Under the pieces are notes generated by a model. It was given only the letters and a program-made list of their open reading frames with translations, searched no databases and was not told the origin of the DNA. 64,000 nt of DNA from Comamonas sp. JUb58 (GTDB lineage: Bacteria; Pseudomonadota; Gammaproteobacteria; Burkholderiales; Burkholderiaceae_C), in the NCBI RefSeq assembly GCF_004364775.1, contig NZ_SOAL01000010.1, positions 62,001-126,000 on the forward strand. Direction: 5' to 3'. Positions 6,827 through 20,114 of the stretch are shown piece after piece. The number at the start of each line of letters is the position of its first letter. The stretch's first letter is position 1. A program made the translations under genes and the position numbers.

Positions 6827-6900
6827 GGCGCAATCCTTCAAATAATCTATCGCGGGAAGGTCAATGTAGAGCAGCTGGCAATACCCGAGCAAGATTTTTA

Positions 6901-6958
6901 TTTAGGGTCAGATACTAATTATTTTCAAATGATTTTTCTCAACAATTAATTAGGGTCA
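6901..6958. repeat. Pair of TTAGGGTCA direct repeats in AT-rich DNA beside the RAYT transposase
   Basis: TTAGGGTCA occurs at 6902-6910 and 6950-6958, in a strongly AT-rich stretch between gltB and the transposase gene. Each copy sits next to AATTA/TAATT runs. Short GGGTCA-type repeats next to REP-associated transposases are plausible recognition or REP-like sites. Confidence 0.5.
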
Positions 6959-7004
6959 TATTTAAATCAGCAAAATTATCGTTGATTTATATGACATTTT
7001 TAAT

Positions 7005-7706
7005 TCATTCGTCGGAGGGAGCTACCAAACGAGGACGACCCGCACTCTTTTTGTGCAACCTGCGCACCGTTTTGGACTGCAGGGATTGCACGAAGTCCTC
7101 ACTACCCATCGCCCAACCGCCTTGCACGGCATCGGTCAGCGCGCCAGACTCGCGCTGCGACAGGCCATAGGCCAGCATTTGGGCGTAGCGGGCCTCCCGC
7201 GCAAAGGGGGTGTTGCCCAAGGCCCAGAAAGCGGCCGGATCGCGCAACCAGGCCAGCGGTCTTGCACCCAAATGGTGCGCACAGCTGGACCAGGGGTAGT
7301 CTTCCGCCTTGGCAACCAGGCCTGCGCGCTGCGGGTTGGAATCGATATAGATGATGCATTGCAGCAACGGCTCGGCCGGTTCAAGCACCGTCGAGCGGTA
7401 GCGCCCTTCCCACAAAGTGCCGCTGCGCCCGTGCCGGGCATTGAAATAACGCACATAGGCCCGGCCCAGCGCCTGCATCAGCAACGGCAGGCCCTGCTCG
7501 GTCTGAGGTGTTATCAGCAGGTGAAAGTGGTTGGGCATCAGCACAAAGGCATGCACTGCCACCAGATGGGTCTGCGCCAGCTGGCGCAGAAAATCGCTGA
7601 AATGCTGGAAATCCTCGTCATCGACAAAAACCGTCTGCCGGTTGTTGCCCCGGTGCAGCACATGGTGCGGCATGTCAGGAAGACTGAGTCGGGGAAGGCG
7701 GGCCAT
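7005..7706 (-). CDS. REP-associated tyrosine transposase (RAYT, Y1/HUH family)
   Basis: 233 residues. RAYTs are single-copy, IS200/IS605-related HUH endonucleases linked to REP palindromes. The sequence shows the family start MARLPRLSLPDMPHHVLHRG, the HUH pair His60 and His62 (MPNHFHLL), then YFNARHGRSGTLWEGR and IIYIDSNPQRAG. Tyr120 is spaced like the nucleophile of Y1 transposases, though Tyr84 or Tyr87 cannot be excluded. I chose the ATG at 7706 because conserved sequence begins there. The C-terminal tail is basic (RRLHKKSAGRPR). No classical IS ends are visible; the gene appears domesticated between gltB and an iron receptor. Confidence 0.9.
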   Translation of the reverse strand: MARLPRLSLPDMPHHVLHRGNNRQTVFVDDEDFQHFSDFLRQLAQTHLVAVHAFVLMPNHFHLLITPQTEQGLPLLMQALGRAYVRYFNARHGRSGTLWEGRYRSTVLEPAEPLLQCIIYIDSNPQRAGLVAKAEDYPWSSCAHHLGARPLAWLRDPAAFWALGNTPFAREARYAQMLAYGLSQRESGALTDAVQGGWAMGSEDFVQSLQSKTVRRLHKKSAGRPRLVAPSDE

Positions 7707-7860
7707 GGTGAAAACGTCGGCAAAGGACGGCAGAGGAGAAGCCGCTCCATTATCAACGCTCTGCCCTCTGCAGCACCCAATCGCAGCACGGAGCCCTCGA
7801 TTCGCAAGCACCTTGCGCATACAGACTGCCCCAACGCTTCTCAGCACCAACATCAACGAC

Positions 7861-7894
7861 AAAAGGCCATCCGCGCACGGCAGATGGCCTTTTT
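7861..7894. terminator. Intrinsic terminator after the TonB receptor gene
   Basis: Stem AAAAGGCCATC paired with GATGGCCTTTT, loop about 11 nt, T-rich on both strands. It lies 19 bp beyond the receptor stop codon. Confidence 0.85.
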
Positions 7895-7912
7895 CCATAA
7901 CGGCTTTGCAGC

Positions 7913-10015
7913 TTAGAAGCGGTAACGCGCCACCAGTTGCACTGAGCGCGGCGCGCCCGGCAGGTTCAGGTTGGGCGAGGAGCCGTGGCCGGCCACGATG
8001 TAGCGCTTGTCCAGAAGGTTGTTGAGCTTGAGCTGCAGGTCCACGTTGTTCAGGCGGTAGTAGGCCATGGCATCCAGGGTGACGTAGCCTGGCAGCACGA
8101 CGGTATTGCCGGGGTTGGCAAAACGCGCGCCGACATAGTTGATGCCGCCACCGGCGCCAAAGCCATGGCCCAGGGCCTTGGTTACCCAGATATTGGCGCT
8201 GTGCTTGGGCGTCAGGGTGGCGCGCTTGCCTTCCACCGCCTGGCCGGCATCCACCGCTGGCGACGAGGTCATCTCGCTCAGCAGGTAGGCATAGCCCGAC
8301 CAGATCTGCCAGCCCTGGGACAGGTCACCGGCAAAGCTCAGCTCCAGGCCTCGGGTGCGCTGCACGCCCAGCGGCACCAGGGTGTTGCTGACGGGGTCCA
8401 CGCTCTTGATATTGGTGCGCTCGATCTCGAACAGCGCAGCATTGGCGCTGGCCTTGCCGTCGAGCAGATCCCACTTCACACCAACCTCGCGGCTGGTGGT
8501 CTTCTCAGGCGCCAGCTGGGCATTGTTGGCCGCCAGTGCAAAGGTCTCACCCGAGGGCTGGAACGACTTGCTGAACGACACGTAGTACGACAGTGCATTG
8601 CTGGGCTGGTAGACCAGACCGACGCGCGGGCTCCAGGCCACATCGGTGCGGCCCAGGTTGACGCTGCCTGGCGTGTAGTTGTCGGTTTCCTGGCGGAAGC
8701 GGTCATAGCGCACGCCGGCCAGCAGCTTCCATTCCGGGGCCAGGGTCACCATGTCCTGCACATAGGCGCTGGCCACGCTGAAGACGCTGTCGTTGTTGGC
8801 CGAAGGTGCAGCCGTCAGCACCGGCGAGACGACCGGCAGCACCGGGTTGAACAGCGACACCGTACCCACATTGTTCTGGTTGATGCTCAGCAGGCCCTTG
8901 TTCTGGCGGCCCAGCTCCAGCCCGTACAGCACCTGGTGCTGCATGCCCGCCAGGTCCAGCTTCTGCGTCAGTTCCAGCTGGTTGAAAAAGCCATGCTCGT
9001 CGCGCTCCAGATGGCCACGGTTGAGGGTCGCCGTCTGCGCCTTCTCATTGACCGAGCCGACCAGGGTGTTGCTGCGGTCCAGCGTGTAATCGTAGTAACG
9101 CAGCACATTGCGCAGGCTCAGGCTGTCGTTGAAGCGGTGGCTCAAGGTGGCCGAAGCCGAGTACACCTCCGAGGTGCTCACATCGGTATCACGGGCATTG
9201 GCCGCGCCATAGTAGGTGCGGGGCGACACATTCACCGGGCGGCCCTGGAAGGCGGGGATACCAAAGTCGGTCAGGCGGCTGTCCTTGAGGTAGTCGGCCT
9301 GCAGCAGCAGCTGCGTGTCCGCGCTGAACTTGAACTGCACCGAGCCAGCCAGCGCCTTGCGGTCCAGAAACTGCTGGTCGCGGTAGCTGTCGGCACGCTC
9401 GATGGCGCCGGTCAGGCGGTAGGAGACGATGCTGTCCTGTGGCGCACGTGCCAGGTCAAACTCGCCCCGGCGCTGGTTCCAGCTACCCAGGGTCAGGCCC
9501 ACTTCGCTGCGGTCAATGCCGGGCTTCTTGGTGATGCGGTTGATCAAACCACCCGAAGAGCCCCGGCCGTACAGCACCGATGCCGGGCCCTTGAGCACTT
9601 CGACCTGCTCGACATTGGACAGATCGCGGAAGTACAGCGCGTCATCGCGCACGCCATCGACAAACTGGTCGGCAATGGCAGAGAAGCCACGGATCGTCAC
9701 CTGGTCGCGCTGGCCATCGCCATGCGACAGGCCAATGCCGGGCACAGCCTTGAGCACGTCCTGCATCGACTGCACTGCCTGGTCGCGCATCAGCTGCTGG
9801 GGCACCACGTTCACGGTTTGCGGAATATCGCGCAAAGGCGCTTCAATCTTGGTAGCGCTCTTGGCCGTGGGCGCTGCATAGCCCACATCCGCTGCGGTAT
9901 CGCCCTGCACGCGCACTTCCTGCAAGGTCGTCTCAGCCGGCGCTTGCTGCGCCGCTGCATAGCCCGCGCACAGCAGCGCCACTGCTGCCACCACGGGTTG
10001 GGTTTTGAAAGCCAT
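7913..10015 (-). CDS. TonB-dependent siderophore receptor
   Basis: 700 residues. An outer-membrane beta-barrel importing a ferric siderophore with energy from TonB-ExbBD. Residues 1-22 are a Sec signal peptide (hydrophobic AAVALLCAGYAAA, cleavage near AAA-QQ). Residues about 50-165 form the plug: TonB-box region (LQEVRVQG), IPQTVNVVPQQLM, VTIRGF, VEQVEVLKGPASVLYGRG. The C-terminal barrel ends in the terminal Phe (VARYRF) typical of barrel assembly signals. The plug resembles the FhuA/FpvA/FoxA-like siderophore group; the ligand cannot be told. The start at 10015 has an AAGGA ribosome site. A Fur-box candidate lies about 110 bp upstream. No siderophore biosynthesis, sigma factor or TonB genes are adjacent. 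Confidence 0.93.
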   Translation of the reverse strand: MAFKTQPVVAAVALLCAGYAAAQQAPAETTLQEVRVQGDTAADVGYAAPTAKSATKIEAPLRDIPQTVNVVPQQLMRDQAVQSMQDVLKAVPGIGLSHGDGQRDQVTIRGFSAIADQFVDGVRDDALYFRDLSNVEQVEVLKGPASVLYGRGSSGGLINRITKKPGIDRSEVGLTLGSWNQRRGEFDLARAPQDSIVSYRLTGAIERADSYRDQQFLDRKALAGSVQFKFSADTQLLLQADYLKDSRLTDFGIPAFQGRPVNVSPRTYYGAANARDTDVSTSEVYSASATLSHRFNDSLSLRNVLRYYDYTLDRSNTLVGSVNEKAQTATLNRGHLERDEHGFFNQLELTQKLDLAGMQHQVLYGLELGRQNKGLLSINQNNVGTVSLFNPVLPVVSPVLTAAPSANNDSVFSVASAYVQDMVTLAPEWKLLAGVRYDRFRQETDNYTPGSVNLGRTDVAWSPRVGLVYQPSNALSYYVSFSKSFQPSGETFALAANNAQLAPEKTTSREVGVKWDLLDGKASANAALFEIERTNIKSVDPVSNTLVPLGVQRTRGLELSFAGDLSQGWQIWSGYAYLLSEMTSSPAVDAGQAVEGKRATLTPKHSANIWVTKALGHGFGAGGGINYVGARFANPGNTVVLPGYVTLDAMAYYRLNNVDLQLKLNNLLDKRYIVAGHGSSPNLNLPGAPRSVQLVARYRF

Positions 10016-10402
10016 TCCAGTTCCTTTATTGCCTTGGTATGTGTTCGGTCTGGCTGTACCGCATGGGAAATCCGCACTCTGGTTGGCTACCACCGTGAAA
10101 AAGCTCGCACATCTTAAAGAGGAAAATGGTTCTCATTTACATATCTTTAAGAATGGGATACACAGAGGCGACAAAGCCACAGCAAGCGGTTTCTTAAGAC
10201 TTCTTCAGGTTTTCTTAAGAAATGGCTGAAGTGCAGTACGGATGCAGGCTGCGCGCGATCGCAGCCCGTGCATGGCGCGGCGCAAGGCCATCGAATCCCG
10301 CCCTCAGCCAAGGGCTACCCGGGTTGCGACAGGGCGCAGCTCAGCCGGCACCCGGCGGCGCCATGAAGCAAAGAAGAGGAAATAAGGAGCCGCGCCTGCG
10401 GC
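10016..10402. promoter_or_regulatory. Intergenic region between the siderophore receptor and pcaR
   Basis: 387 bp without a convincing gene. It holds the receptor promoter with a Fur-box candidate (10122-10140), a cluster of four TCTT-AAGA palindromes (10112-10220) and a weak terminator of pcaR at its right edge. The rest is GC-rich with no further structure that I can defend. Confidence 0.6.
10122..10140 (-). promoter_or_regulatory. Candidate Fur box upstream of the TonB receptor
   Basis: On the minus strand GTAAATGAGAACCATTTTC matches the 19-bp Fur consensus GATAATGATAATCATTATC at 14 positions. Its place upstream of a siderophore receptor fits iron repression. Confidence 0.65.
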
Positions 10403-10404
10403 TC
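10387..10404 (-). terminator. Weak terminator-like hairpin at the end of pcaR
   Basis: A 7-bp stem GAGCCGC/GCGGCTC with a GCCT loop overlaps the pcaR stop codon. On the minus strand it is followed by a pyrimidine-rich but not uniform T tract (CTTATTTCC). Confidence 0.4.
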
Positions 10405-11224
10405 AGCGGGGCGCCAGCTTGCCGCCAATGCCCCGGCCCGCCTGGTAGCCCAGCAGGCCCGAGACGCGCCCGGCCGCCTGCAACAGCTGGGGCAGCAGCT
10501 CGCCCTGCATGATCTCGGGCGTGGTGCGGTTGGCCTGGCCGCTGATGTTCATCGCAGCAACGACTTGGCCGCTGGCATTGCGGATGGGGGCAGCGACCGA
10601 GGTGAGGCCCTCTTCCAGCTCCTGGTTGAGCAGGCACCAGCCTTCCGCGCGCACCTGCGCCAGCTCAGTCAGCAACTGGGCATCGTCCTGAATGGTGAAA
10701 CGGGTGAACATCGTGCGGTCACGACCATCGAGCAAGGGCTGCAGCTCTTGCTCCGGAAGCTCGGCCAGCAGCACCCGGCCCAGCGACGTCCAGAAACTCG
10801 GCAGGCGCGAGCCCATGCCCAGGTTGGTGCTCATGATCTTGTGCGTGTGCACGCGCAACACGTAGACAACGTCCTGGCCATCGAGCACCGCGATGGAGCA
10901 GGACTCATGCGTCTGCTCGACCAGTGCATCCATCACCGGCTGGGCCAGGTTCCAGACCGGCATCGACGACAGATAGGCAAAGCCCAGATCCAGGATGCGC
11001 GGCGTGAGCGCAAACAAACGGCCCTCCACCCGCACATAGCCCAGGGTCTGCAAGGTCAGCAGAATGCGGCGCGCCCCGGCCCGCGTCATGCCGGTGGCCT
11101 CGGCCACTTCCGTCAAGGTCTGGCGCGGCGCTGCCGCGCCAAAGCTGCGGATGACCTCCAGCCCGCGCGCGAAGGACTGCACATAGCTGTCACTGGGGCG
11201 GAGGGTCGGGTCTTCTTCTTTCAT
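10403..11224 (-). CDS. pcaR: IclR-family regulator of the beta-ketoadipate pathway
   Basis: 273 residues, IclR architecture: an N-terminal winged helix (about 15-75, with FARGLEVIRSFG and LTEVAEATGMTRAGARRILLTL) and a C-terminal effector-binding GAF-like domain (VYVLRVHTHKIMSTNLGMGSRLPSFWTSLGRVLLA). It closely resembles PcaR/PcaU/PobR, which respond to 3-oxoadipate, protocatechuate or 4-hydroxybenzoate. It is transcribed away from pcaIJFD, the usual arrangement. Start at the ATG at 11224 (MKEEDPTLRP). The 470-bp divergent gap holds a three-half-site operator candidate. The effector is inferred, not shown by sequence. Confidence 0.9.
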   Translation of the reverse strand: MKEEDPTLRPSDSYVQSFARGLEVIRSFGAAAPRQTLTEVAEATGMTRAGARRILLTLQTLGYVRVEGRLFALTPRILDLGFAYLSSMPVWNLAQPVMDALVEQTHESCSIAVLDGQDVVYVLRVHTHKIMSTNLGMGSRLPSFWTSLGRVLLAELPEQELQPLLDGRDRTMFTRFTIQDDAQLLTELAQVRAEGWCLLNQELEEGLTSVAAPIRNASGQVVAAMNISGQANRTTPEIMQGELLPQLLQAAGRVSGLLGYQAGRGIGGKLAPR

Positions 11225-11329
11225 AGGCCGCAATCGTGGTCGTTGGCGTGGAGCGGATCCCTGGCAATACAAAAGCAAATCGCAGGGACATCGGGTAGCG
11301 GATTATCCGGCAGTCTATAATTCTTTTAG

Positions 11330-11356
11330 CGAACTAATGTTCTATATACGAACATT
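11330..11356. promoter_or_regulatory. Candidate PcaR operator with three GAAC/GTTC half-sites
   Basis: Half-sites GAAC (11331-11334), GTTC (11339-11342) and GAAC (11350-11353). The last two form a perfect inverted repeat AATGTTC-N7-GAACATT; the first repeats CGAAC directly. IclR regulator PcaU is known to use three repeats, two inverted and one direct, so the layout fits. Confidence 0.6.
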
Positions 11357-11377
11357 TCTATTAAGAGCCTCTGGGAG

Positions 11378-11529
11378 GTTCTGCAAAACCCTCGCCAAGC
11401 GGGATGGACGCGGATCGGGATGAGATGCAAGGCGTCTTTTGCAGTCAATAGCCAGCTATTGACAAGAAAGACAACGCAGCAGATCGCCCGAGCCCGCGTG
11501 CAGACCACGGCAGGGAGTTTTGCAGGAAC
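11378..11529. repeat. MITE-like hairpin element bounded by CTGCAAAAC inverted repeats
   Basis: CTGCAAAAC at 11381-11389 is inverted as GTTTTGCAG at 11517-11525, with partial extension outward (GGTTC/GGAAC). Inside is a perfect 9-bp hairpin, GTCAATAGC (11444-11452) and GCTATTGAC (11455-11463) with a 2-nt loop, extended by GTCTTT/AAAGAC. The core resembles the element at 22279-22567. Confidence 0.6.
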
Positions 11530-11694
11530 GCCCTAAGGGCCGCCGATCCTCTCAAATGCATTCCCAAGTCTCGCGCAGGCAGCCTTGGCATTGCATTTGT
11601 CGCACGCGGTACAGGCACTGCCACAGCGCAGCGCGACCATGCCGCAGCGGGATCAGCAGCCTGTTGCGACCCGTGTTCAGAACCAGGAGACAAG

Positions 11695-12396
11695 ATGATC
11701 AACAAGATTTCGGACTCGATTGCCGAGTCCCTCAGCCGCGTCCAGGACGGCTCGACCGTGCTCATCGGCGGCTTTGGCACCGCCGGCATTCCGGCGGCCC
11801 TGATTGATGGCCTGATTGCACAGGGTGCGCGCGACCTCACGGTGGTCAACAACAACGCCGGCAATGGCGACACGGGCCTGGCGGCCCTGCTCAAGACCGG
11901 CGCCGTGCGCAAGATCATTTGCAGCTTTCCGCGCCAGGTCGACAGCTATGTGTTTGACGAGCTCTACCGCAGCGGCAAGATCGAGCTCGAAGTGGTGCCC
12001 CAGGGCAATCTGGCCGAGCGCATGCGCGCTGCCGGTGCCGGCATCGGCGCCTTCTTCTGCCCCACCGCCTACGGCACCGAGCTGGCCGCCGGCAAGGAAA
12101 CGCGTGAGATCAATGGCAAGCACTATGTGCTGGAGTACCCCATCTATGGCGATGTGGCGCTGATCAAGGCCGAGCAAGGCGACCGCTGGGGCAACCTGAC
12201 CTACCGCAAGTCGGCACGCAACTTTGGCCCGGTGATGGCCACCGCTGCGAAGTACACCATTGCCACCGTGCATGAGATCGTGGAGCTGGGCCAGCTCGAC
12301 CCCGAGGCCGTGGTCACCCCTGGCATCTATGTCAACCAGGTCATCAAGATCGAGCGCGTTGCCACGCAAGCCGGTGGCTTCAAAAAAACAGCCTGA
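11695..12396 (+). CDS. pcaI: 3-oxoadipate CoA-transferase subunit A
   Basis: 233 residues. With PcaJ it moves CoA from succinyl-CoA to 3-oxoadipate, the penultimate step of the beta-ketoadipate pathway. The family I CoA-transferase alpha-subunit signature is seen in VLIGGFGTAGIP (about 22-33), followed by VVNNNAGNGDTGLAALL and the conserved FPRQVDSYVFDELYRSG. Length is normal for subunit A. ATG at 11695 follows AGGAGACAAG. It is the first gene of a plus-strand cluster; pcaJ begins 16 bp after its stop, so the subunits are co-translated from one mRNA. The wider family also includes acetoacetate CoA-transferase subunits, but the pcaF/pcaD neighbours favour 3-oxoadipate. Confidence 0.94.
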   Translation: MINKISDSIAESLSRVQDGSTVLIGGFGTAGIPAALIDGLIAQGARDLTVVNNNAGNGDTGLAALLKTGAVRKIICSFPRQVDSYVFDELYRSGKIELEVVPQGNLAERMRAAGAGIGAFFCPTAYGTELAAGKETREINGKHYVLEYPIYGDVALIKAEQGDRWGNLTYRKSARNFGPVMATAAKYTIATVHEIVELGQLDPEAVVTPGIYVNQVIKIERVATQAGGFKKTA

Positions 12397-12412
12397 AGCA
12401 GGAGACAAGACC

Positions 12413-13054
12413 ATGAGCAGCTACCAAAAACGCACGAAAGACGAACTGGCCGCCCGCGTGGCGCAGGACATCAATGACGGCGCCTACGTGAACCTGGGCA
12501 TTGGCCAGCCGACGGCCGTGGCCAACCACATCCCCAAGGACCGCGAAGTCATCCTGCAGTCGGAAAACGGCATCCTGGGCATGGGCCCGGCACCCGCCGC
12601 TGGCGAGGAAGACTATGACCTCACCAACGCCGGCAAGCAGCCCGTCACCTTGCTGGCAGGCGGCAGCTTTTTCCACCATGCCGACAGCTTTGCGATGATG
12701 CGCGGCGGTCACCTCGACATCTGCGTGCTCGGCGCTTTCCAGGTGGCAGAGAACGGCGACCTGGCCAACTGGAGCACCGGTGAAGCCGGTGCCATTCCCG
12801 CCGTGGGCGGCGCGATGGACCTGGCCATTGGTGCCAAGCAGACCTGGGTGATGATGGACCTGCTGACCAAGAAGGGCGAGAGCAAGATCGTCAAGCAATG
12901 CAGCTACCCGCTGACCGGCATTGGCTGCGTCAAGCGCATCTACACCGATGTGGCCACCATCGAGGTCACCGACCAGGGCCTCAAGCTCATCGACACCGTT
13001 GTAGGTCTGGACAAGGCCGAACTCGAAAAAATGATTGGCCTGCGCCTGCTGTAA
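12413..13054 (+). CDS. pcaJ: 3-oxoadipate CoA-transferase subunit B
   Basis: 213 residues, the beta subunit that carries the catalytic glutamate. The active-site motif SENGILGMGP is at about 48-57, with NLGIGQPTAVANHI before it and GGHLDICVLGAFQV and the GGAMDLAIGAKQ segment after it, as in PcaJ and ScoB. The ATG at 12413 (MSSYQKRTKDEL) has an AGGAGACAAGACC leader nearly identical to that of pcaI. The gap to pcaF is 37 bp with another copy of this ribosome site. Both subunits being intact and adjacent supports a working enzyme. Confidence 0.94.
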   Translation: MSSYQKRTKDELAARVAQDINDGAYVNLGIGQPTAVANHIPKDREVILQSENGILGMGPAPAAGEEDYDLTNAGKQPVTLLAGGSFFHHADSFAMMRGGHLDICVLGAFQVAENGDLANWSTGEAGAIPAVGGAMDLAIGAKQTWVMMDLLTKKGESKIVKQCSYPLTGIGCVKRIYTDVATIEVTDQGLKLIDTVVGLDKAELEKMIGLRLL

Positions 13055-13091
13055 GCGCAGCGCCGATCTGTATTCATCCAAGGAGACCAAG

Positions 13092-14294
13092 ATGACCAAC
13101 GCCTATATCTGCGACGCCGTGCGCACCCCCTTTGGCCGCTACGGCGGCGCACTTGCCGGTGTGCGCACCGATGACCTGGGCGCCGTGCCCATCAAGGCGC
13201 TGATGGAGCGCAACCCCGGTGTGGACTGGACGGCAGTGACCGATGTGATCTACGGCTGCGCCAACCAGGCCGGCGAAGACAACCGCAATGTGGCCCGCAT
13301 GTCCAGTCTGCTCGCGGGCCTGCCCATCGACGTGCCCGGCGCCACCGTCAACCGTCTCTGCGGCTCGGGCCTGGATGCCGTGGGCTCCGCTGCCCGCGCC
13401 ATCAAGTCCGGCGAAGCACGCCTGATGATCGCCGGTGGTGTGGAATCGATGAGCCGCGCACCCTTTGTGATGCCCAAGGCCGAATCCGCCTTCAGCCGCA
13501 ACAATGCCGTCTACGACACCACCATTGGCTGGCGCTTTGTCAACAAGCAGATGAAGGCGCTGTACGGCGTGGACTCCATGCCCGAGACGGCTGAGAACGT
13601 GGCCGACGACTTCAAGATCGAGCGCGAAGCCCAGGACCGCATGGCTTTAGCCTCGCAGCAAAAGGCCGCAGCGGCCATCGCTGCTGGCCACCTGGCCCGC
13701 GAGATCGTGGCCGTGACCATTCCGCAGAAAAAGGGCGATGCACTGGTGATCAGCCAGGACGAGCACCCCCGCGCCACCACGATCGAAGCGCTGGCCAAGC
13801 TCAAGGGCGTGGTGCGCGAAGGCGGTACCGTGACGGCCGGCAATGCCTCGGGCGTGAACGACGGCGCCTGCGCCCTGCTGCTGGCCAATGAAGAAGCTGC
13901 CCAGCAATACGGCCTGACCCCTCGCGCCCGTGTGGTGGCCATGGCGACTGCCGGTGTGGCACCGCGCATCATGGGCTTTGGCCCGGCACCTGCCGTGCGC
14001 AAGGTGCTGGCACTGGCCGGCCTGACCTTGGCCGACATGGATGTCATCGAGCTGAACGAAGCCTTTGCCGCCCAAGGCCTGGCCGTGCTGCGCGACCTGG
14101 GCATTGCGGATGACGACCAACGCGTCAACCAATGGGGCGGCGCGATTGCGCTGGGCCACCCGCTAGGCGCATCGGGCGCACGCCTCGCTACCACCGCCGT
14201 CAACCAGCTGCATGCACTGGGTGGCCGCTACGCGCTGTGCACCATGTGCATCGGCGTCGGCCAGGGCATTGCCGTGGTTCTCGAAAAAGTCTGA
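13092..14294 (+). CDS. pcaF: 3-oxoadipyl-CoA thiolase
   Basis: 400 residues. It cleaves 3-oxoadipyl-CoA with CoA to succinyl-CoA and acetyl-CoA. Thiolase features: the nucleophile Cys90 in NRLCGSGLDAV, GGVESMSRAPFV, the NEAFAAQG motif, His in GGAIALGHPLGASGAR, and the second catalytic Cys in CTMCIGVGQG near the C-terminus. The N-terminus (AYICDAVRTPFGRYGGAL) matches the PcaF/PaaJ subgroup rather than acetoacetyl-CoA thiolases. Start at 13092 behind AAGGAGACCAAG. It could also serve the phenylacetate pathway, but no paa gene is nearby. Confidence 0.95.
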   Translation: MTNAYICDAVRTPFGRYGGALAGVRTDDLGAVPIKALMERNPGVDWTAVTDVIYGCANQAGEDNRNVARMSSLLAGLPIDVPGATVNRLCGSGLDAVGSAARAIKSGEARLMIAGGVESMSRAPFVMPKAESAFSRNNAVYDTTIGWRFVNKQMKALYGVDSMPETAENVADDFKIEREAQDRMALASQQKAAAAIAAGHLAREIVAVTIPQKKGDALVISQDEHPRATTIEALAKLKGVVREGGTVTAGNASGVNDGACALLLANEEAAQQYGLTPRARVVAMATAGVAPRIMGFGPAPAVRKVLALAGLTLADMDVIELNEAFAAQGLAVLRDLGIADDDQRVNQWGGAIALGHPLGASGARLATTAVNQLHALGGRYALCTMCIGVGQGIAVVLEKV

Positions 14295-14455
14295 CGCTCC
14301 ACTGCGGCGGCAAGCGCAGGCCTGCAAAGGCCGCGCCTTGCCCCGCATCTCCCGACACCCTCCCCCCTAAAAACACCAGCGCTGCTGCCTAGCCCGCCTT
14401 GGCGCAGCCACGCCCGCGCAGCGATGCAGGGGCACTTTTTGAAGGACAGAACGCC

Positions 14456-15253
14456 ATGGCAACACAACAAATCACCACTGCGACCGGCATGTTCAACATC
14501 GATCTGCAAGGCCCCGAGGGCGCGCCGGTGCTGGTTTTCTCCAACTCGCTGGGCACCACCTTGGACATGTGGGACGCCCAGGCACGCACCTTCAGCAGCC
14601 AGTACCGCGTGCTGCGCTATGACACCCGTGGCCACGGTGCCAGCGTCGTGAGCCCTGGCCCCTACCAGTTCGCCCAACTGGGCGGCGATGTGCTGGCCAT
14701 TCTCGACAGCCTGGGCATCGACCAGGCCCATTTCTGCGGTATCTCGATGGGCGGCCTCACCGGACTGTGGCTGGGCGTGCATGCCGGCGCACGCATGCGC
14801 AGCATCACCGTGGCCAACAGCGCCGCCAAGATTGGCGCCGAAGCCGGCTGGCGCGACCGCGCTGCCCTGGTGCGTGCCAATGGCGCAGCAGCCATGCAGA
14901 CCCTGGCCGATTCATCGCCCAGCCGCTGGTTCACCGAAGGCTTTATCGCCAGCCAGCCCCAGGTGGTGCAGACCGCCCAGGCCTGGATTGCCGGCATTGC
15001 CCCCGAAGGCTATGCCAGCTGCTGCGAGGCCCTGGCCGTGGAAGACCTGCGTGCCGATATCGCCCGCATCCAGACCCCCACCCTGCTGATTGGCGGCAGC
15101 GCCGACCCGGTCACCACGGTGGCCGATGCCGAGGCCATGCATGCCGCCATTGCCGGCTCGGAGCTGGCGACGGTGCCGGCCTCGCACCTGTCCAACCTCG
15201 AAGTGCCCCAGGCCTTTGACCTGGCACTGGGCAGCTTTTTGCAAAAACACTGA
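14456..15253 (+). CDS. pcaD: 3-oxoadipate enol-lactonase
   Basis: 265 residues, alpha/beta hydrolase. It opens 3-oxoadipate enol-lactone to 3-oxoadipate. The nucleophile elbow is GISMGG with Ser97; the acid is in GGSADPVT and the catalytic His in PASHLSN. SNSLGTTLDMWD near residue 29 (oxyanion region) is typical of PcaD. A 161-bp gap separates it from pcaF. The ATG at 14456 follows GAAGGACAG. No pcaC (4-carboxymuconolactone decarboxylase) domain is fused, and pcaB, pcaC and pcaGH are absent from the window, so the upper pathway must be encoded elsewhere. Confidence 0.92.
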   Translation: MATQQITTATGMFNIDLQGPEGAPVLVFSNSLGTTLDMWDAQARTFSSQYRVLRYDTRGHGASVVSPGPYQFAQLGGDVLAILDSLGIDQAHFCGISMGGLTGLWLGVHAGARMRSITVANSAAKIGAEAGWRDRAALVRANGAAAMQTLADSSPSRWFTEGFIASQPQVVQTAQAWIAGIAPEGYASCCEALAVEDLRADIARIQTPTLLIGGSADPVTTVADAEAMHAAIAGSELATVPASHLSNLEVPQAFDLALGSFLQKH

Positions 15254-15334
15254 GGCAGCCGCCTTGAACCATGCAGACGGGTACCAAGAACAACAATCGC
15301 CCGCTGCAGCCCTTCCTCAACCAAGGAGACAAGC

Positions 15335-16393
15335 ATGTCCGATGCCAATCCACGCTGGAAGCAGCGCCCTGCAGGATCGACCTGGGGCGACTTCGGCCCC
15401 GATGACCAACTGGGCCGCCTCAACCTGCTGACGGCCGCCAAGGTGCGCCAAGGCGTTGCCGAGGTGCAGGAAGGCCTGCGCTTTTCGCTCAGCCTGCCGC
15501 TCGACTACCCCGGCGGCAGCGCGCTCAACCCCAACCGCAAGCCGCCTGTGCTGCGCCCCTTGCAGCGCAATGGCCTGGTCAATTTCAACTGCCTGCTTGG
15601 CGACCTGGAGCCCGGCCGCACCGATGTGCTGTCCGACGACATGGCCGTGCTGTCGCTGCAGTACTCCACCCAGTGGGATGGCCTGGCCCATGCCGGCCAG
15701 CTGTTCGATGCCAATGGCGACGGCGTTCCCGAGCCGCTCTACTACAACGGTTTTGCCGCTGGCCGTGATGTGCTGGGGCCGCTGCTGGTCAGCGACACCG
15801 GCATGCCCACGGCCGAGAGCAGCGGCAGCACCAGCTGCGCCAAGGCGCTGGGCATTGAGGGCATGGCGCAGAACGGCGTGCAAGGCCGAGGCGTGATGAT
15901 GGACCTGCATGCGCACTACGGCGATGCCCGCAGCCTGATCGGCTACGACGAGTGGATGCGTGTGATCGAGGCCGACCGCCTGGAGATCGAGCCCGGCGAC
16001 ATGCTCTGCCTGCACACCGGTTTTGCCCAGGCCGTGCTGGCGATGCAGAAGAACCCCGACCCGGTGGTGCTGAACAACAGCTGCGCGGTGCTCAATGGCC
16101 GCGACGAGAAGCTGCTGCAGTGGATCAGCGACAGCCAGATCGCCGTGATTGCGGCCGACAACTATGCCGTCGAAGCGCACCCGGCGCAGCCCGGTGCCGA
16201 TTGCTGCGCGGCGCTGCCGCTGCATGAGCACTGCCTGTTCAAACTGGGCCTACATCTGGGCGAGCTCTGGCACCTGACGCCGCTGGCGCAGTGGCTACGT
16301 GCCCATGGCCGCAGCCGCTTTCTGCTGACCGCCCCACCGCTGAACCTGCCCGGCGCCATTGCCTCGCCCGTGACCCCGATTGCCACGGTCTGA
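15335..16393 (+). CDS. Cyclase-family (kynurenine formamidase-like) metal hydrolase
   Basis: 352 residues of the PF04199 cyclase family, in the longer subgroup whose metal motif reads QWDGLAHAG instead of HTGTHxD of KynB. Other conserved blocks are WGDFGPDDQLGRLNLL near the start, GRGVMMDLHAHYG, GDMLCLHTGF and IAADNYAVEAHP. Members hydrolyse amides, lactones or cyclic diones; the substrate here is unknown. It carries the same AAGGAGACAAG ribosome site as pcaI, pcaJ and pcaF and lies 81 bp behind pcaD, so it probably belongs to the same regulon and may open a ring or lactone feeding the pathway (inference). Confidence 0.85.
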   Translation: MSDANPRWKQRPAGSTWGDFGPDDQLGRLNLLTAAKVRQGVAEVQEGLRFSLSLPLDYPGGSALNPNRKPPVLRPLQRNGLVNFNCLLGDLEPGRTDVLSDDMAVLSLQYSTQWDGLAHAGQLFDANGDGVPEPLYYNGFAAGRDVLGPLLVSDTGMPTAESSGSTSCAKALGIEGMAQNGVQGRGVMMDLHAHYGDARSLIGYDEWMRVIEADRLEIEPGDMLCLHTGFAQAVLAMQKNPDPVVLNNSCAVLNGRDEKLLQWISDSQIAVIAADNYAVEAHPAQPGADCCAALPLHEHCLFKLGLHLGELWHLTPLAQWLRAHGRSRFLLTAPPLNLPGAIASPVTPIATV

Positions 16394-16467
16394 GACCGGC
16401 CTTCAGAGAACCGCTTTACCGCGGCAGCAGCCCAGGCTCGCCTGCCACACCCTACCCCGGAGCCACC

Positions 16468-16764
16468 ATGCCCTACATCATTGAGACTTTCGACAAGCCC
16501 GAACACCAGGCCGTGCGCCAGGCCCACCGCCCGGCGCACCTGGACTTTCTGGCACGCAACGCGGAGCTGCTGCTGGCCTGCGGCGCCAAGCTGCAGGACG
16601 ACGGCAGCGACATGGGCGGTGGCCTCTATGTGGTGGACCTGGACACGCGCGAAGCCGCCCAGGCCTTTATCGAATCCGATCCCTTCTACCAGGCTGCACT
16701 GTTTGCCCAGGTGCGCATCACGCGCTGGCGCAAGGCCTATGTGGCCGGCCAGTGCTGCCTGTGA
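16468..16764 (+). CDS. YciI-like small protein
   Basis: 98 residues with the ferredoxin-like YciI fold pattern: MPYIIETFDKPEH, then RQAHRPAHLDFL with a conserved His/Asp pair, GGGLYVVDLDTREAAQAFIESDPF and the final VRITRWRKAYV. YciI proteins are related in fold to muconolactone isomerase, and some have lyase, dehydrochlorinase or isomerase roles; this one has no assigned reaction. The position between the cyclase and an SDR gene, with only 20 bp to the latter, points to a small catabolic enzyme in the same route. The ribosome site is weak, so translation may be coupled or low. Confidence 0.82.
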   Translation: MPYIIETFDKPEHQAVRQAHRPAHLDFLARNAELLLACGAKLQDDGSDMGGGLYVVDLDTREAAQAFIESDPFYQAALFAQVRITRWRKAYVAGQCCL

Positions 16765-16784
16765 CGCCTTTCTTGGAAACCTCT

Positions 16785-17534
16785 ATGTCCACTCCAACGA
16801 CTCCATCGACCTCCGCACGCCCCCGCGTGCTCATTACCGGCGGCGGCGCTGGCATTGGTGCAGCCGCTGCGCTGCGCTGCCATGCCGATGGCTATGACCC
16901 GGTCATCATCGACCGCCAGATTGACCAGGTGCCGGCCGGCTTTGTCGCGATCCAGGCCGACCTCAGCAGTGCCGAAGACACGGCACGTGCGCTGAACGAA
17001 GCGCTCGCTGGCGGCCCCATCACCCGCCTGGTGAACAACGTTGGCATCGTGGTGCCCAACGACGCCGCCAGCCAGACCCTGGCCGAGTTCGACCTCGCCG
17101 TATCGCTGAACCTGCGCTGCGCCTTCCAGTGCATGCAGGCCTTGCTGCCGGGCATGCAGGAGGCGCGCTTTGGCCGCATCGTCAACATGTCCTCGCGCGC
17201 GGCGCTGGGCAAGGACCTGCGCACGGCTTACGCCGCCACCAAGGCCGGCCTGATCGGCATGACCCGCGTCTGGGCGCTGGAGCTGGGCCAATGGGGCATC
17301 ACCGCCAATGCGATCGGCCCCGGCCCCATCCGTACCGAGCTGTTCGACAAGGCCAACCCGCCAGGCGCCGAGCGCACGCAAAAGATCATCCAGTCCGTGC
17401 CCGTCAAGCGCGTGGGCACGCCCGACGACGTGGCCCATGCCGTGGCCTACATGCTCGACGAGCGCAGCGGTTTTGTCACCGGCCAGGCGCTCTATGTCTG
17501 CGGCGGCATGACCGTGGGCGTGGCACCGGTCTAG
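16785..17534 (+). CDS. SDR-family NAD(P)-dependent oxidoreductase
   Basis: 249 residues, classical short-chain dehydrogenase. The cofactor motif is TGGGAGIG (18-25), NNVG (84-87) stabilises the central sheet, and the catalytic triad is Ser136, Tyr149 and Lys153. Asp43 at the end of beta-2 (IIDRQ) favours NAD over NADP. The C-terminal FVTGQALYVCGGMTVG is FabG-like. FabG-type names are often given to such proteins, but position in the catabolic cluster suggests a hydroxyacyl or cyclic alcohol dehydrogenase. Starts 20 bp after the YciI-like gene. Confidence 0.88.
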   Translation: MSTPTTPSTSARPRVLITGGGAGIGAAAALRCHADGYDPVIIDRQIDQVPAGFVAIQADLSSAEDTARALNEALAGGPITRLVNNVGIVVPNDAASQTLAEFDLAVSLNLRCAFQCMQALLPGMQEARFGRIVNMSSRAALGKDLRTAYAATKAGLIGMTRVWALELGQWGITANAIGPGPIRTELFDKANPPGAERTQKIIQSVPVKRVGTPDDVAHAVAYMLDERSGFVTGQALYVCGGMTVGVAPV

Positions 17535-17542
17535 CCCTTTTG

Positions 17543-17569
17543 GCCGGGCCTGTCTGTTGCGGGCCCGGC
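17543..17569 (+). terminator. Hairpin between the SDR and AtoE-like genes
   Basis: 8-bp perfect stem GCCGGGCC/GGCCCGGC with an 11-nt loop. Only a short, broken T tract (TTTGCTCC) follows, so partial termination or mRNA protection is more likely than full stop. Confidence 0.45.
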
Positions 17570-17601
17570 TTTGCTCCTTCCATCGATAACAAGAGACATT
17601 G

Positions 17602-18936
17602 ATGTCAAAAATCACCGCTTTTTTCACCGAGCTGATGCGCAAGTATCTGCCCGACCCCTTTGTGTTCGCGATTTTGCTGACCTTGCTGACCATGGTGCTG
17701 GCCTTTGCCGTGGAGAGCCGGCCCATCAACCTGGTGGTGCAGGACTGGGGCAAGGGCTTTTGGAGCCTGCTGGCTTTCACCACCCAGATGGCGGTGATCC
17801 TGGTGATGGGCTATGTGCTGGCCGCTGCGCCGGTGGTGGACCGCTTCCTCAACCGCATTGCCGGCATGGTGCACACGCCGCGTGGCGCCATCATCATGGC
17901 CACCATCGTGGGCTGCGTGGGCAGCTACCTGAACTGGGGTTTTGGTCTGGTGATTGGCGGCATCATGGCCAAGAAGCTGGCCGTGCGCGTCAAGGGTGTG
18001 CACTACCCGCTGATCATCGCCTCGGCCTACACCGGCTTCACGATGTACAGCCTGGGGCTGTCGGCCACCATTCCGGTGCTGATCTCCACCAAGGGCCACA
18101 GCTTTGAAAAGCAGATGGGCATCATCCCGCTGAGCGAAACCATCTTCTCGCCCCACATCCTGCTGACCGCGTTGGTCGTGCTGATTGTGCTGCCGCTGAT
18201 CAATGCCGCGATGCACCCCAAAGCCGGTGAAAAAGTCACCGAAATCAGCCCCGAGCTGGCCAGCAACGAAGAAGCCAAGGGCCCATCGGCCGCCAACCTG
18301 CTGGGCGATGAAAAGACCTTTGCCGGCCGCCTGAACAACAGCCGCATCCTGAGCTGGCTGATTGGCCTGACCGGCATGGCCTTTGTGGTCATGCACTTTG
18401 TGCAGAACGGCAGCCTCGATCTGAACATGATCAATTTCTTCATCCTGTTCCTGGGCATCTTGCTGCTGGGCACGCCGATGAAGTATGTGGAAAAGGTCAA
18501 TGAAGGCGTCAAGACCATTGGCGGCATCATTCTGCAGTTCCCGTTCTACGCCGGCATCATGGCCATCATGCATGCCTCGGGCCTGGTCGAATCGATCGCC
18601 CATGTGTTCGTGAGCTTCTCGACCGCCTACACCCTGCCGCTGTGGGGCCTGGTGAGCTCCTTCTTCATCAACTTCTTTGCGCCCTCGGGCGGCGGCCACT
18701 GGGTGCTGCAAGGCCCCTTCATGATCGAAGCGGCCAAGACCCTGGGCGCATCGCAGGCCCATACCGCCATGTCGGTGATGCTGGGCAATGGCTGGAACGA
18801 CCTGGTGCAGCCTTTCTGGATCCTGCCTGCACTGGCGCTGTCCAAGCTCAAGCTCAAGGACATCATGGGCTACACCGTGGTCTCGATGTTCGTCGTGGGG
18901 GCCATCTATATCGGCTCCTCCCTCTTCTGGCCATAA
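17602..18936 (+). CDS. Short-chain fatty acid transporter, AtoE family
   Basis: 444 residues, strongly hydrophobic with about ten to twelve membrane segments. The start MSKITAFFTELMRKYLPDPFVFAI and later GSYLNWGFGLVIGG, GFTMYSLGLSATIPVLIS and NFFAPSGGGHWVLQGPF are hallmarks of the AtoE/SCFA family, which takes up acetoacetate, butyrate or other small acids. Start at the ATG at 17602; a TTG codon lies directly before it. It follows the SDR gene by 67 bp and precedes a Bug-type binding protein. Probably the importer for the substrate of the preceding enzymes (inference). Confidence 0.88.
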   Translation: MSKITAFFTELMRKYLPDPFVFAILLTLLTMVLAFAVESRPINLVVQDWGKGFWSLLAFTTQMAVILVMGYVLAAAPVVDRFLNRIAGMVHTPRGAIIMATIVGCVGSYLNWGFGLVIGGIMAKKLAVRVKGVHYPLIIASAYTGFTMYSLGLSATIPVLISTKGHSFEKQMGIIPLSETIFSPHILLTALVVLIVLPLINAAMHPKAGEKVTEISPELASNEEAKGPSAANLLGDEKTFAGRLNNSRILSWLIGLTGMAFVVMHFVQNGSLDLNMINFFILFLGILLLGTPMKYVEKVNEGVKTIGGIILQFPFYAGIMAIMHASGLVESIAHVFVSFSTAYTLPLWGLVSSFFINFFAPSGGGHWVLQGPFMIEAAKTLGASQAHTAMSVMLGNGWNDLVQPFWILPALALSKLKLKDIMGYTVVSMFVVGAIYIGSSLFWP

Positions 18937-19034
18937 AACACGCCAGACCGTCCCTTCCTCCGGCTGTCACGCGAGACCCAACAAGCATTGACAAAACAAG
19001 TGGCAGCCTTTTTCACCTTGCTTTGGAGATACCC

Positions 19035-20033
19035 ATGAACACCATCCGTTTCAACGCCCGCCGCACCGTGCTGCAAGCCATTGCCGCTGCCAGCCTGGGC
19101 GCCGCCCTGCAGCCAGCAGCCTTTGCGGCCGAGGCCTTCCCGAACAAGCCCATCACGCTGATCGTGCCCTTTGTGGCTGGTGGCACCACCGACATCCTGG
19201 CCCGCATCGTTGGCCAGTCGCTGGGCGAAGAACTGGGCCAGCCGGTGATCATCGACAACCGCGCCGGTGCCGGTGGCAATATCGGCGGCCAGTTTGCTGC
19301 ACGTGCGCCGGCCGATGGCTACACCATCTTCATGGGCACCGTGGGTACCCATGCGATCAATGAATGGCTCTACAAGAAGATGCCCTTCAACCCCAACAAG
19401 GACTTTGTGCCGCTGACCCGCGTGGCCAATGTGCCCAACCTGCTGGTGGCCAACCCTGCGCAGCCTTTCAAGAACGTTAAGGAGCTGATCAGCTATGCCC
19501 AGGCCCACCCCGGCCAGGTGAACTTTGGCTCCTCGGGCAGCGGCAGCTCCATCCACCTGTCGGGCGAGCTGTTCAAGATGATGGCCAAGGTCGACATGAT
19601 CCACATCCCCTACAAGGGCAGCGCACCGGCCGTGACCGACCTGCTGGGCAACCAGATTGCGATCATGTTTGACAACATGCCCTCTGCGATCCAGCACGTG
19701 CGTTCTGGCAAGCTGCGCCCCCTGGCGGTGACCACCGCCAAGCGCTCGCCCGAGCTGCCCGATGTGCCAACCGTTGCTGAAGCAGGCGTGCCCGGCTACG
19801 AAGCCACCTCCTGGTTTGGCCTGTTCGCCCCCACCAAGACGCCCGCCGATGTGCAGGCCAAGTTGCATGCCGCCATCATCAAGGTGTTGCAAAAGCCTGA
19901 CGTGATCAAAAAAATTGGCGACCAGGGCGGCGAAGTGGTGACCGAATCGCAGGCCGAATTTGGCAAGTTTATCGCTGCTGAAAACGAAAAGTGGAAGCAA
20001 GTGGTGAAGACCTCGGGCGCGACCGCAGGCTAA
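19035..20033 (+). CDS. Tripartite tricarboxylate transporter substrate-binding protein (Bug family)
   Basis: 332 residues. The export signal has twin arginines (NARRTVLQAIAAASLGAAL, cleavage near AFA-AE). The mature part shows Bug/TctC blocks: PNKPITLIVPFVAGGTTDILAR, IIDNRAGAGGNIGG, VNFGSSGSGSSIHLSGELF, IHIPYKGSAPAVTDLLGNQI, LAVTTAKRSPELPDVPTVAEAG. Bug proteins bind carboxylates in the periplasm. No tctA or tctB is adjacent, so it is an orphan or works with another membrane unit such as that at 61.3-63.3 kb. A strong terminator follows. Confidence 0.92.
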   Translation: MNTIRFNARRTVLQAIAAASLGAALQPAAFAAEAFPNKPITLIVPFVAGGTTDILARIVGQSLGEELGQPVIIDNRAGAGGNIGGQFAARAPADGYTIFMGTVGTHAINEWLYKKMPFNPNKDFVPLTRVANVPNLLVANPAQPFKNVKELISYAQAHPGQVNFGSSGSGSSIHLSGELFKMMAKVDMIHIPYKGSAPAVTDLLGNQIAIMFDNMPSAIQHVRSGKLRPLAVTTAKRSPELPDVPTVAEAGVPGYEATSWFGLFAPTKTPADVQAKLHAAIIKVLQKPDVIKKIGDQGGEVVTESQAEFGKFIAAENEKWKQVVKTSGATAG

Positions 20034-20054
20034 TCCACCCAAGCGTACACAGCA

Positions 20055-20093
20055 AAGCCGCCGATCCTGGACGCCCAGGGTCGGCGGCTTTTT
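20055..20093 (+). terminator. Intrinsic terminator ending the catabolic cluster
   Basis: Long stem beginning AAAGCCGCCGA and ending TCGGCGGCTTTTT with inner CCTGG/CCAGG pairing. It lies between the Bug protein gene and the convergent phoX gene, with the T run on the plus strand. Confidence 0.9.
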
Positions 20094-20114
20094 CTATGCA
20101 GCGCGGCTAGCGGA

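Follow-up and report, generated by a model that had tools for sequence, protein, structure and literature searches.

The stretch of DNA considered here (the window) comprises 64,000 nucleotides of Comamonas sp. JUb58, positions 62,001 to 126,000 of contig NZ_SOAL01000010.1 (C10:62001-126000), and belongs to a genome of 5.46 Mb in 60 contigs (G000). It holds a run of nine genes on the forward strand, at 11695-20033, together with a divergently oriented gene for an IclR-family regulator; this divergent position is conserved in relatives. The first four of the nine are pca genes, and the other five encode a cyclase-family hydrolase, a YciI-family protein, a short-chain dehydrogenase/reductase (SDR), an AtoE-type carrier and a Bug-type binding protein. 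An initial annotation had described these five as lying behind pcaD on one strand with short gaps, and all of them were found there, at 15335-20033. The features of the locus are:

10403..11278, reverse strand: IclR-family regulator of the PcaR/PcaU/PobR type (TIGR02431, 329.7 bits against a cut-off of 284.75; start codon uncertain)
11695..12396, forward strand: pcaI, 3-oxoacid CoA-transferase subunit A (TIGR02429, over cut-off)
12413..13054, forward strand: pcaJ, 3-oxoacid CoA-transferase subunit B (TIGR02428, over cut-off)
13092..14294, forward strand: pcaF, 3-oxoadipyl-CoA thiolase (TIGR02430, over cut-off)
14456..15253, forward strand: pcaD, 3-oxoadipate enol-lactonase (TIGR02427, 267.3 bits against a cut-off of 255.85)
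15335..16393, forward strand: cyclase-family hydrolase of the Gln type (PF04199, over cut-off; PDB 5ibz, E 1.7e-33)
16468..16764, forward strand: YciI-family protein (NF009503, 172.9 bits against a cut-off of 145)
16785..17534, forward strand: SDR oxidoreductase (PF13561/PF00106)
17602..18936, forward strand: AtoE-type (short-chain fatty acid, SCFA_trans) carrier (PF02667, 429.6 bits; TIGR00366 matched below cut-off)
19035..20033, forward strand: Bug/TctC periplasmic binding protein (PF03401, 271.5 bits)
20054..20091, forward strand: terminator-like hairpin with a 17-bp stem and a 4-base loop (fold of 20034-20110, -40.1 kcal/mol)

The gaps within the operon measure 16-161 bases, those from pcaD onward being 81, 74, 20, 67 and 98. 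These gaps, the gene order and the hairpin after the Bug gene suggest that the nine genes are co-transcribed. The ribosome site AGGAGACAAG, which had been noted as common to pcaI, pcaJ and the cyclase gene, was recovered exactly: it occurs three times in the 64-kb window, upstream of those three genes, against 0.10 copies expected from shuffles. The T run of the hairpin (20089-20093) falls partly within its stem, and the hairpin is absent from the list returned by a consensus terminator scan, which probably skipped it because too few T residues follow the full stem. The consensus scans of the window were uninformative, with one promoter-like site where shuffles gave 1.5 on average and nine terminator-like sites where they gave 6.6 (sd 3.2).

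PcaD, PcaI, PcaJ and PcaF are at or over their curated cut-offs, as befits a lower beta-ketoadipate pathway. The module has these proteins and a PcaR-type regulator in common with that pathway, as well as CatC (muconolactone isomerase) in many relatives; it differs in having no ring-cleavage gene and in adding five genes, uptake genes among them. Neither an intradiol dioxygenase nor a cycloisomerase is encoded in the operon. The earlier statement that ring-cleavage genes are missing thus holds for the cluster but not for the genome, where catA (catechol 1,2-dioxygenase), catB (muconate cycloisomerase) and catC lie on another contig, C8. There, catC is situated about 6 kb from catA/catB, next to a Bug gene whose counterpart in C. 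avium is 70% like it (L204, G000:C8:80000-97000, at 4708-5982). The pcaD of the window is the only match in the genome at E 1e-40, and the operon should therefore also finish catechol breakdown in this strain. For pcaC, the model PF02627 matched 12 of 14 control genomes and is too broad to identify the gene. Among the remaining proteins, the SDR has the Ser and the Tyr-x3-Lys, and an Asp that, from a reading of the sequence, ends strand 2 suggests NAD as its cofactor. The PDB relatives of the Bug protein include a terephthalate-binding protein; we take the entry 5oei to be adipate-binding. No TctA or TctB membrane part occurs among the operon proteins, which include only the Bug/TctC component; the rest of the genome was not searched for them.

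The arrangement recurs well beyond this strain. A search with the cyclase over 299 genomes of the family gave matches at 1e-40 in 39 of them, with 44 places listed: the window, 41 loci that were fetched (L009, L040-L079) and two second places, in G018 and G162, that were left out. The complete ten-gene order is present in seven of the 41 fetched loci, and G079 lacks the AtoE gene alone; the remaining 33 have cyclases of at most 67% identity and different neighbours. A wider contig search with the same protein supplied 569 confirmed stretches, and all counts of 80 loci refer to the best 80 of them. Among these, all 11 loci with a cyclase of at least 76% identity keep the five genes along with pcaF and pcaD, and so the five were not found apart from each other or from pca in close relatives, in keeping with the initial annotation. 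L119 and L120 place the Bug gene between pcaF and pcaD. Eight more of the best 80 loci (L124-L128, L130, L135 and L138) hold partial modules at 50% identity or more; the module is not kept in the other 61. The window cyclase itself shares 99% identity with the cyclase of Comamonas koreensis KCTC 12005. NF009503-type YciI proteins exceed their cut-off in 10 of the 299 family genomes, namely G231 and the nine that have the cyclase module.

A tree of 97 cyclases has one supported clade (99/92) of 22 rows, 21 of which belong to complete or partial modules. These 21 are from Comamonadaceae, Pseudomonas, Pluralibacter, Rhodovulum, Bartonella and Paraburkholderia, and thus to Alpha-, Beta- and Gammaproteobacteria. 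In L123, the exception, a 3HCDH-type gene lies close to the cyclase gene, and two module rows fall outside the clade (L202, on a long branch, and a second copy in L128). On this comparative evidence, the module is a real, old unit and not a chance neighbourhood. A plasmid search with the cyclase gave 40 records, 38 of them below 60% identity; at two of the four plasmid loci inspected, H1 and H28, the cyclase stands in other contexts.

What might such a unit do? The reading that we favour, with confidence just short of even, is that the IclR gene and the nine-gene operon make up a catabolic unit for external muconolactone-type C6 lactone acids. In this scheme, the Bug protein and the AtoE-type carrier would import the lactone acid. 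CatC, encoded in the operon in many relatives and on the other contig in this strain, would convert muconolactone to 3-oxoadipate enol-lactone, which PcaD would open; PcaIJ and PcaF would then yield succinyl-CoA and acetyl-CoA. The cyclase would be a metal-dependent lactonase for related lactones that are no substrates for CatC and PcaD, such as 3-hydroxyadipate 3,6-lactone, dienelactones or 4-substituted muconolactones. The SDR, joined in some relatives by a 3-hydroxyacid-dehydrogenase-type protein, could oxidise the opened 3-hydroxy acid or reduce maleylacetate to 3-oxoadipate, and the YciI protein may be a second lactone isomerase or an eliminating enzyme. The lactone chemistry used here is general background. 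The import of a cyclic acid, its opening and its feeding into 3-oxoadipate had been proposed in the initial annotation, and this is still the best reading. A muconolactone-type lactone is now the likelier substrate than a dione, because catC lies within the module in eight of the 11 close loci among the best 80 (it is absent from the module of the window) and because the cyclase bears a motif of the trans-dienelactone-hydrolase type. Overall, the earlier interpretation is partly supported.

At a limit of 0.01, the cyclase matches a single PDB sequence, 5ibz (MGS0169), a metal-dependent metagenomic esterase. To our knowledge, MGS0169 has no known physiological role. The window protein has the motif Q109-x3-Q113-x-D115-x3-H119 as well as R68, H297 and E310, and these seven residues are invariant in an alignment of 19 sequences (A3). 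According to its report, MGS0169 carries a modified motif, Q-x3-Q-x-D-x3-H, in common with the trans-dienelactone hydrolase of P. reinekei MT1; it is sensitive to changes in the motif residues, Arg87, His286 and Glu299, and its His137 mutant is insoluble (PMC5341072). When the alignment was read by eye, all seven MGS0169 residues tied to the motif, to binding or to a mutant effect proved to be kept in the window cyclase. With the zinc-dependent MT1 enzyme (PMC5341072, PMC4108320), the cyclase shares the Q-x3-Q-x-D-x3-H motif but not the gene context; the comparison with MT1 is one of motif. These features make the cyclase a likely lactonase. The first two His of the usual motif are Gln in the window cyclase, which disfavours a role as an isatin hydrolase or kynurenine formamidase.

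A 3HCDH-type gene lies beside the SDR gene in L125, L126 and L128 and before the cyclase gene in L202, a placement that fits the oxidation of a 3-hydroxy acid freed from a lactone. The same gene, together with a flavin monooxygenase-like gene in L128, would also suit an alicyclic or dione pathway akin to phloroglucinol fermentation, in which the SDR reduces or oxidises the ring, the cyclase makes a retro-Claisen C-C cut, and a 3-hydroxyacid dehydrogenase, a CoA transferase and a thiolase follow. The phloroglucinol pathway of Clostridium scatologenes (PGR, DPGC, TfD and TAL) does share an SDR, a cyclase-family hydrolase, a CoA transferase and a thiolase with the module (and a 3HCDH-type protein with some relatives), so that the protein types match PGR, DPGC and TfD plus the thiolase and CoA transferase; the available portion of the report names no CatC, PcaD or YciI (PMC10470551). 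We nevertheless consider this pathway improbable. CatC and PcaD, which are lactone enzymes, sit in the module, and the ten proteins that the window unit encodes include neither TAL, or any other beta-keto acid cleavage enzyme, nor 3HCDH. Further, on chemical reasoning, a retro-Claisen cut of a plain C6 ring would leave one acid end and not 3-oxoadipate.

The YciI protein could be modeled well (AF2 model from 12 sequences, mean predicted local distance difference test score [pLDDT] 93.5). Its best structural matches are TftG (Z 14.5), HI0828 (14.1) and ClcF (9.8-10.4), the next row standing at 8.6; the superposition on ClcF, a 5-chloromuconolactone isomerase, has a root-mean-square deviation of 2.6-3.2 across 85-87 residues. 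TftG, a 5-chlorohydroxyquinol dehydrochlorinase, is the best PDB match by sequence as well; the two have the YciI fold in common at 28-29% identity, but TftG serves a different pathway. At 0.001 the protein has no match to PF02426 or TIGR03221, only to PF03795 and YciI-type NCBIfam models. In G016, a second YciI copy lies between Bug and catB, and C. avium has catC between catB and Bug. The ClcF-like fold and the position in G016 both hint at a lactone-isomerase-like YciI protein, although the fold alone proves no function. At L209 8487-10960, Bug, YciI and catB are consecutive on one strand, with YciI in the place of catC.

These resemblances raise the question of halogenated muconolactones. 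In such a pathway, YciI would dehalogenate as TftG does, CatC would act like ClcF, the cyclase would turn 4-halomuconolactones into maleylacetate, and the SDR would be the maleylacetate reductase. The structural ranking of YciI, closest to TftG and then to ClcF, speaks for this idea, as do the cyclase motif, found also in the P. reinekei enzyme, and a cluster with maleylacetate reductase on a plasmid of Caballeronia sp. SBC2. In that cluster (L200 8115-12279), a dioxygenase, a cyclase relative of 62% identity, a cycloisomerase-like gene and a maleylacetate reductase stand in a row. The dioxygenase is of the chlorocatechol/catechol type but below the cut-offs; the enolase-superfamily protein scores 332.6 against the muconate cycloisomerase cut-off of 334.95, about 2 bits short; and the reductase is known from annotation. 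In chlorocatechol operons (tfdCDEF order), a dienelactone hydrolase holds the position that the cyclase has in L200. The L200 cyclase may be a dienelactone hydrolase of a new type, in an operon resembling those for chlorocatechol. This setting also speaks for a lactonase role of the window cyclase. We give the halogen pathway little credence for the module as a whole. The spread of the module over Bartonella apis (a bee-gut species), Comamonadaceae, Pseudomonas and a Rhodobacterales plasmid disfavours a purely man-made substrate, and we know of no SDR that acts as a maleylacetate reductase.

The company that catC keeps is informative about the substrate. It lies between the AtoE and Bug genes in five of eight family relatives; it is also found in the modules of Rhodovulum and Pseudomonas, and beside YciI on a Qingshengfaniella plasmid (Rhodobacterales). 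All four CatC proteins scanned (from L042, L135, L202 and L211, the last from a different operon) pass TIGR03221. We surveyed catA with TIGR02439 in 22 genomes holding a whole or partial module: it exceeds the cut-off in eight, is weaker in six and has no match at 1e-10 in eight. Module catC is present in 12 of the 14 catA-negative carriers. Since catC is in the module though catA is often missing, the unit appears to need a muconolactone isomerase for its own substrate. A survey of catB in 21 carriers (G231 left out) employed two limits, and the gene was not found in nine: two of nine carriers at 0.001 plus the curated cut-off, and seven of 12 at 1e-60. All nine are without catA over cut-off, and eight of them have module catC, Bartonella apis having none. 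Six of the nine (G190, G300, G306, G308, G309 and G310) have no TIGR02439 match, and PF00775 found no match in five of the 21 carriers. G190 is the clearest case: its genome is one contig with a completeness rating of 100%, and beside a module with catC it shows neither catA nor a PF00775 match, nor any catB that passes the cut-off; a completeness rating is not given for G299-G310. We infer that several carriers do not obtain the substrate of the module from catechol in the usual way.

A number of observations weigh against a unit for external lactones. Some of them would suit an ordinary lower catechol ortho pathway, in which the extra genes salvage leaked side lactones and the uptake proteins recover excreted intermediates. 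Because catA, catB and catC lie elsewhere in the genome of the window and its single pcaD lies in the operon, the module may have no other task than to finish the breakdown of catechol. Module catC is missing in five of the eight catA-positive carriers, and five catA-negative carriers (G175, G016, G088, G147 and G299) have intradiol dioxygenases that score 145-178 bits at best against the cut-off of 392 and might act on catechol. Module catC and the lack of catA are weakly linked (Fisher test, p 0.032 one-sided and 0.052 two-sided, in 22 related and non-independent genomes), and G231, G304 and G305 have both catA and module catC. We regard this ordinary pathway as unlikely, if well short of negligible, given that the module is kept, whole or in part, in the 14 of 22 carriers without catA over cut-off (eight of them with no match) and in the nine of 21 without catB. 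For the same reason, namely the carriers that have no catA or catB matches, a plain catechol or protocatechuate cluster was rejected as a full explanation.

Other difficulties for the lactone unit concern its parts. Bartonella apis (G302) has the cyclase, SDR, AtoE and pcaIJF genes without catC, and also a pcaGH-like pair; because that pair and pcaD lie elsewhere, its pcaIJF may serve protocatechuate. In Pseudomonas G306, which has module catC, no pcaD match was found at 1e-40, so that a different lactonase would have to follow CatC in that genome; lactonase-like genes do occur in the G306-type cluster. The module of G231 is without a cyclase, a 56% relative being encoded elsewhere in that genome, and the cyclase is thus not always needed. 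Cyclases of 62-71% identity serve other clusters too. Within the protein itself, Phe84 of 5ibz corresponds to Asn65, the comparison leaves out the other-subunit residues Phe110, Lys112 and Phe117 of 5ibz, and the structure model is poor (mean pLDDT 47.7) and was unused.

A second type of operon also lacks a dioxygenase gene. A LysR gene is divergent from catB and Bug in G265, G088 and G147; in G016 and C. avium the divergent set includes catC as well. The operons lie at L206 6914-9256, L207 6759-9119, L208 8033-10304, L210 7039-9473 and L211 7176-9736; the flanking genes are recG-like, queA, tgt and an exonuclease gene (three scanned in L209, one in L211). Their content, without a dioxygenase gene, fits units for muconate uptake and lactonisation. 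External muconate could accordingly be the substrate of the module as well, lactonised by a CatB encoded elsewhere. The operons of this kind in G265, G088, G147, G016 and G307 agree with that proposal, and MucK provides a precedent for the import of muconate (PMC11258901). That system and the module would each take up an intermediate from after ring cleavage, MucK being a carrier of the major facilitator superfamily for muconate, whereas an AtoE-type carrier with a Bug protein is proposed here for a lactone (compare PMC11258901). Muconate as the general substrate nonetheless seems a poor prospect to us, as catB is not over the limits used in nine of the 21 carriers. Older work on MucK of Acinetobacter reportedly described growth on external muconate.

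If a unit for external lactone acids is indeed what the module represents, a broader proposal can be made, which we advance as possible but somewhat doubtful. The beta-ketoadipate pathway may have a branch without a dioxygenase, spread over Alpha-, Beta- and Gammaproteobacteria, by which bacteria without ortho cleavage live on butenolide acids, such as muconolactone, that other organisms release. The means would be a dedicated carrier and two new enzymes for handling lactones, a Gln-type cyclase lactonase and a YciI-fold enzyme. Such a branch would explain the leftover-looking ortho genes of C. testosteroni and its relatives, which are silent on protocatechuate-type substrates. It would also give a testable role to two unassigned families, the long Gln-type cyclases and the NF009503 YciI proteins, and would make cross-feeding on ring-opened lactones a way of life. 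The core idea is open to growth and deletion tests in a tractable strain. Our literature search found no title or abstract opening concerned with this gene set.

In C. testosteroni KF-1, according to one report, the potential ortho genes are dispersed and pcaG is unannotated; on 4-hydroxybenzoate, vanillate and terephthalate, either no differential expression of these genes was seen or their proteins were undetected, and labelling showed that ortho cleavage was inactive (PMC10154247). The strain of this species in our analysis is ATCC 11996 (L119), in which the module is present; KF-1 was not searched. The species counts among the catA-free carriers. As the ortho genes of KF-1 are not induced there or their proteins not detected, 4-hydroxybenzoate is unlikely to be an informative condition for RNA sequencing.

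Relatives of the module genes also appear in other surroundings. In L137, L144, L152, L170 and similar loci, the cyclase accompanies genes for AtuA, a thiolase, a CoA ligase and a branched-chain-type ABC transporter, and the substrate of these clusters is perhaps a different, terpene-like one. A second cluster in the genome of the window (L009, G000:C16:16000-34000, at 3257-12396) combines a cyclase of 54% identity, an SDR of 45% and a Bug protein with an old-yellow-enzyme-type oxidoreductase, an acyl-CoA dehydrogenase, an acyl-CoA ligase and a divergent IclR gene; it is probably another ring-opening pathway. A metallo-beta-lactamase-fold protein (47-63% alike) recurs beside the cyclase, pcaIJ or catC, at L128 11930, L130 2981, L135 7959-8849, L138 7986 and L213 11396-12289, and the L135 protein is weakly AidB-lactonase-like. 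Finally, the Qingshengfaniella alkalisoli plasmid (L202) carries a complete set of TctA, TctB and binding protein, together with an SDR, at 11644-15456 near its module.

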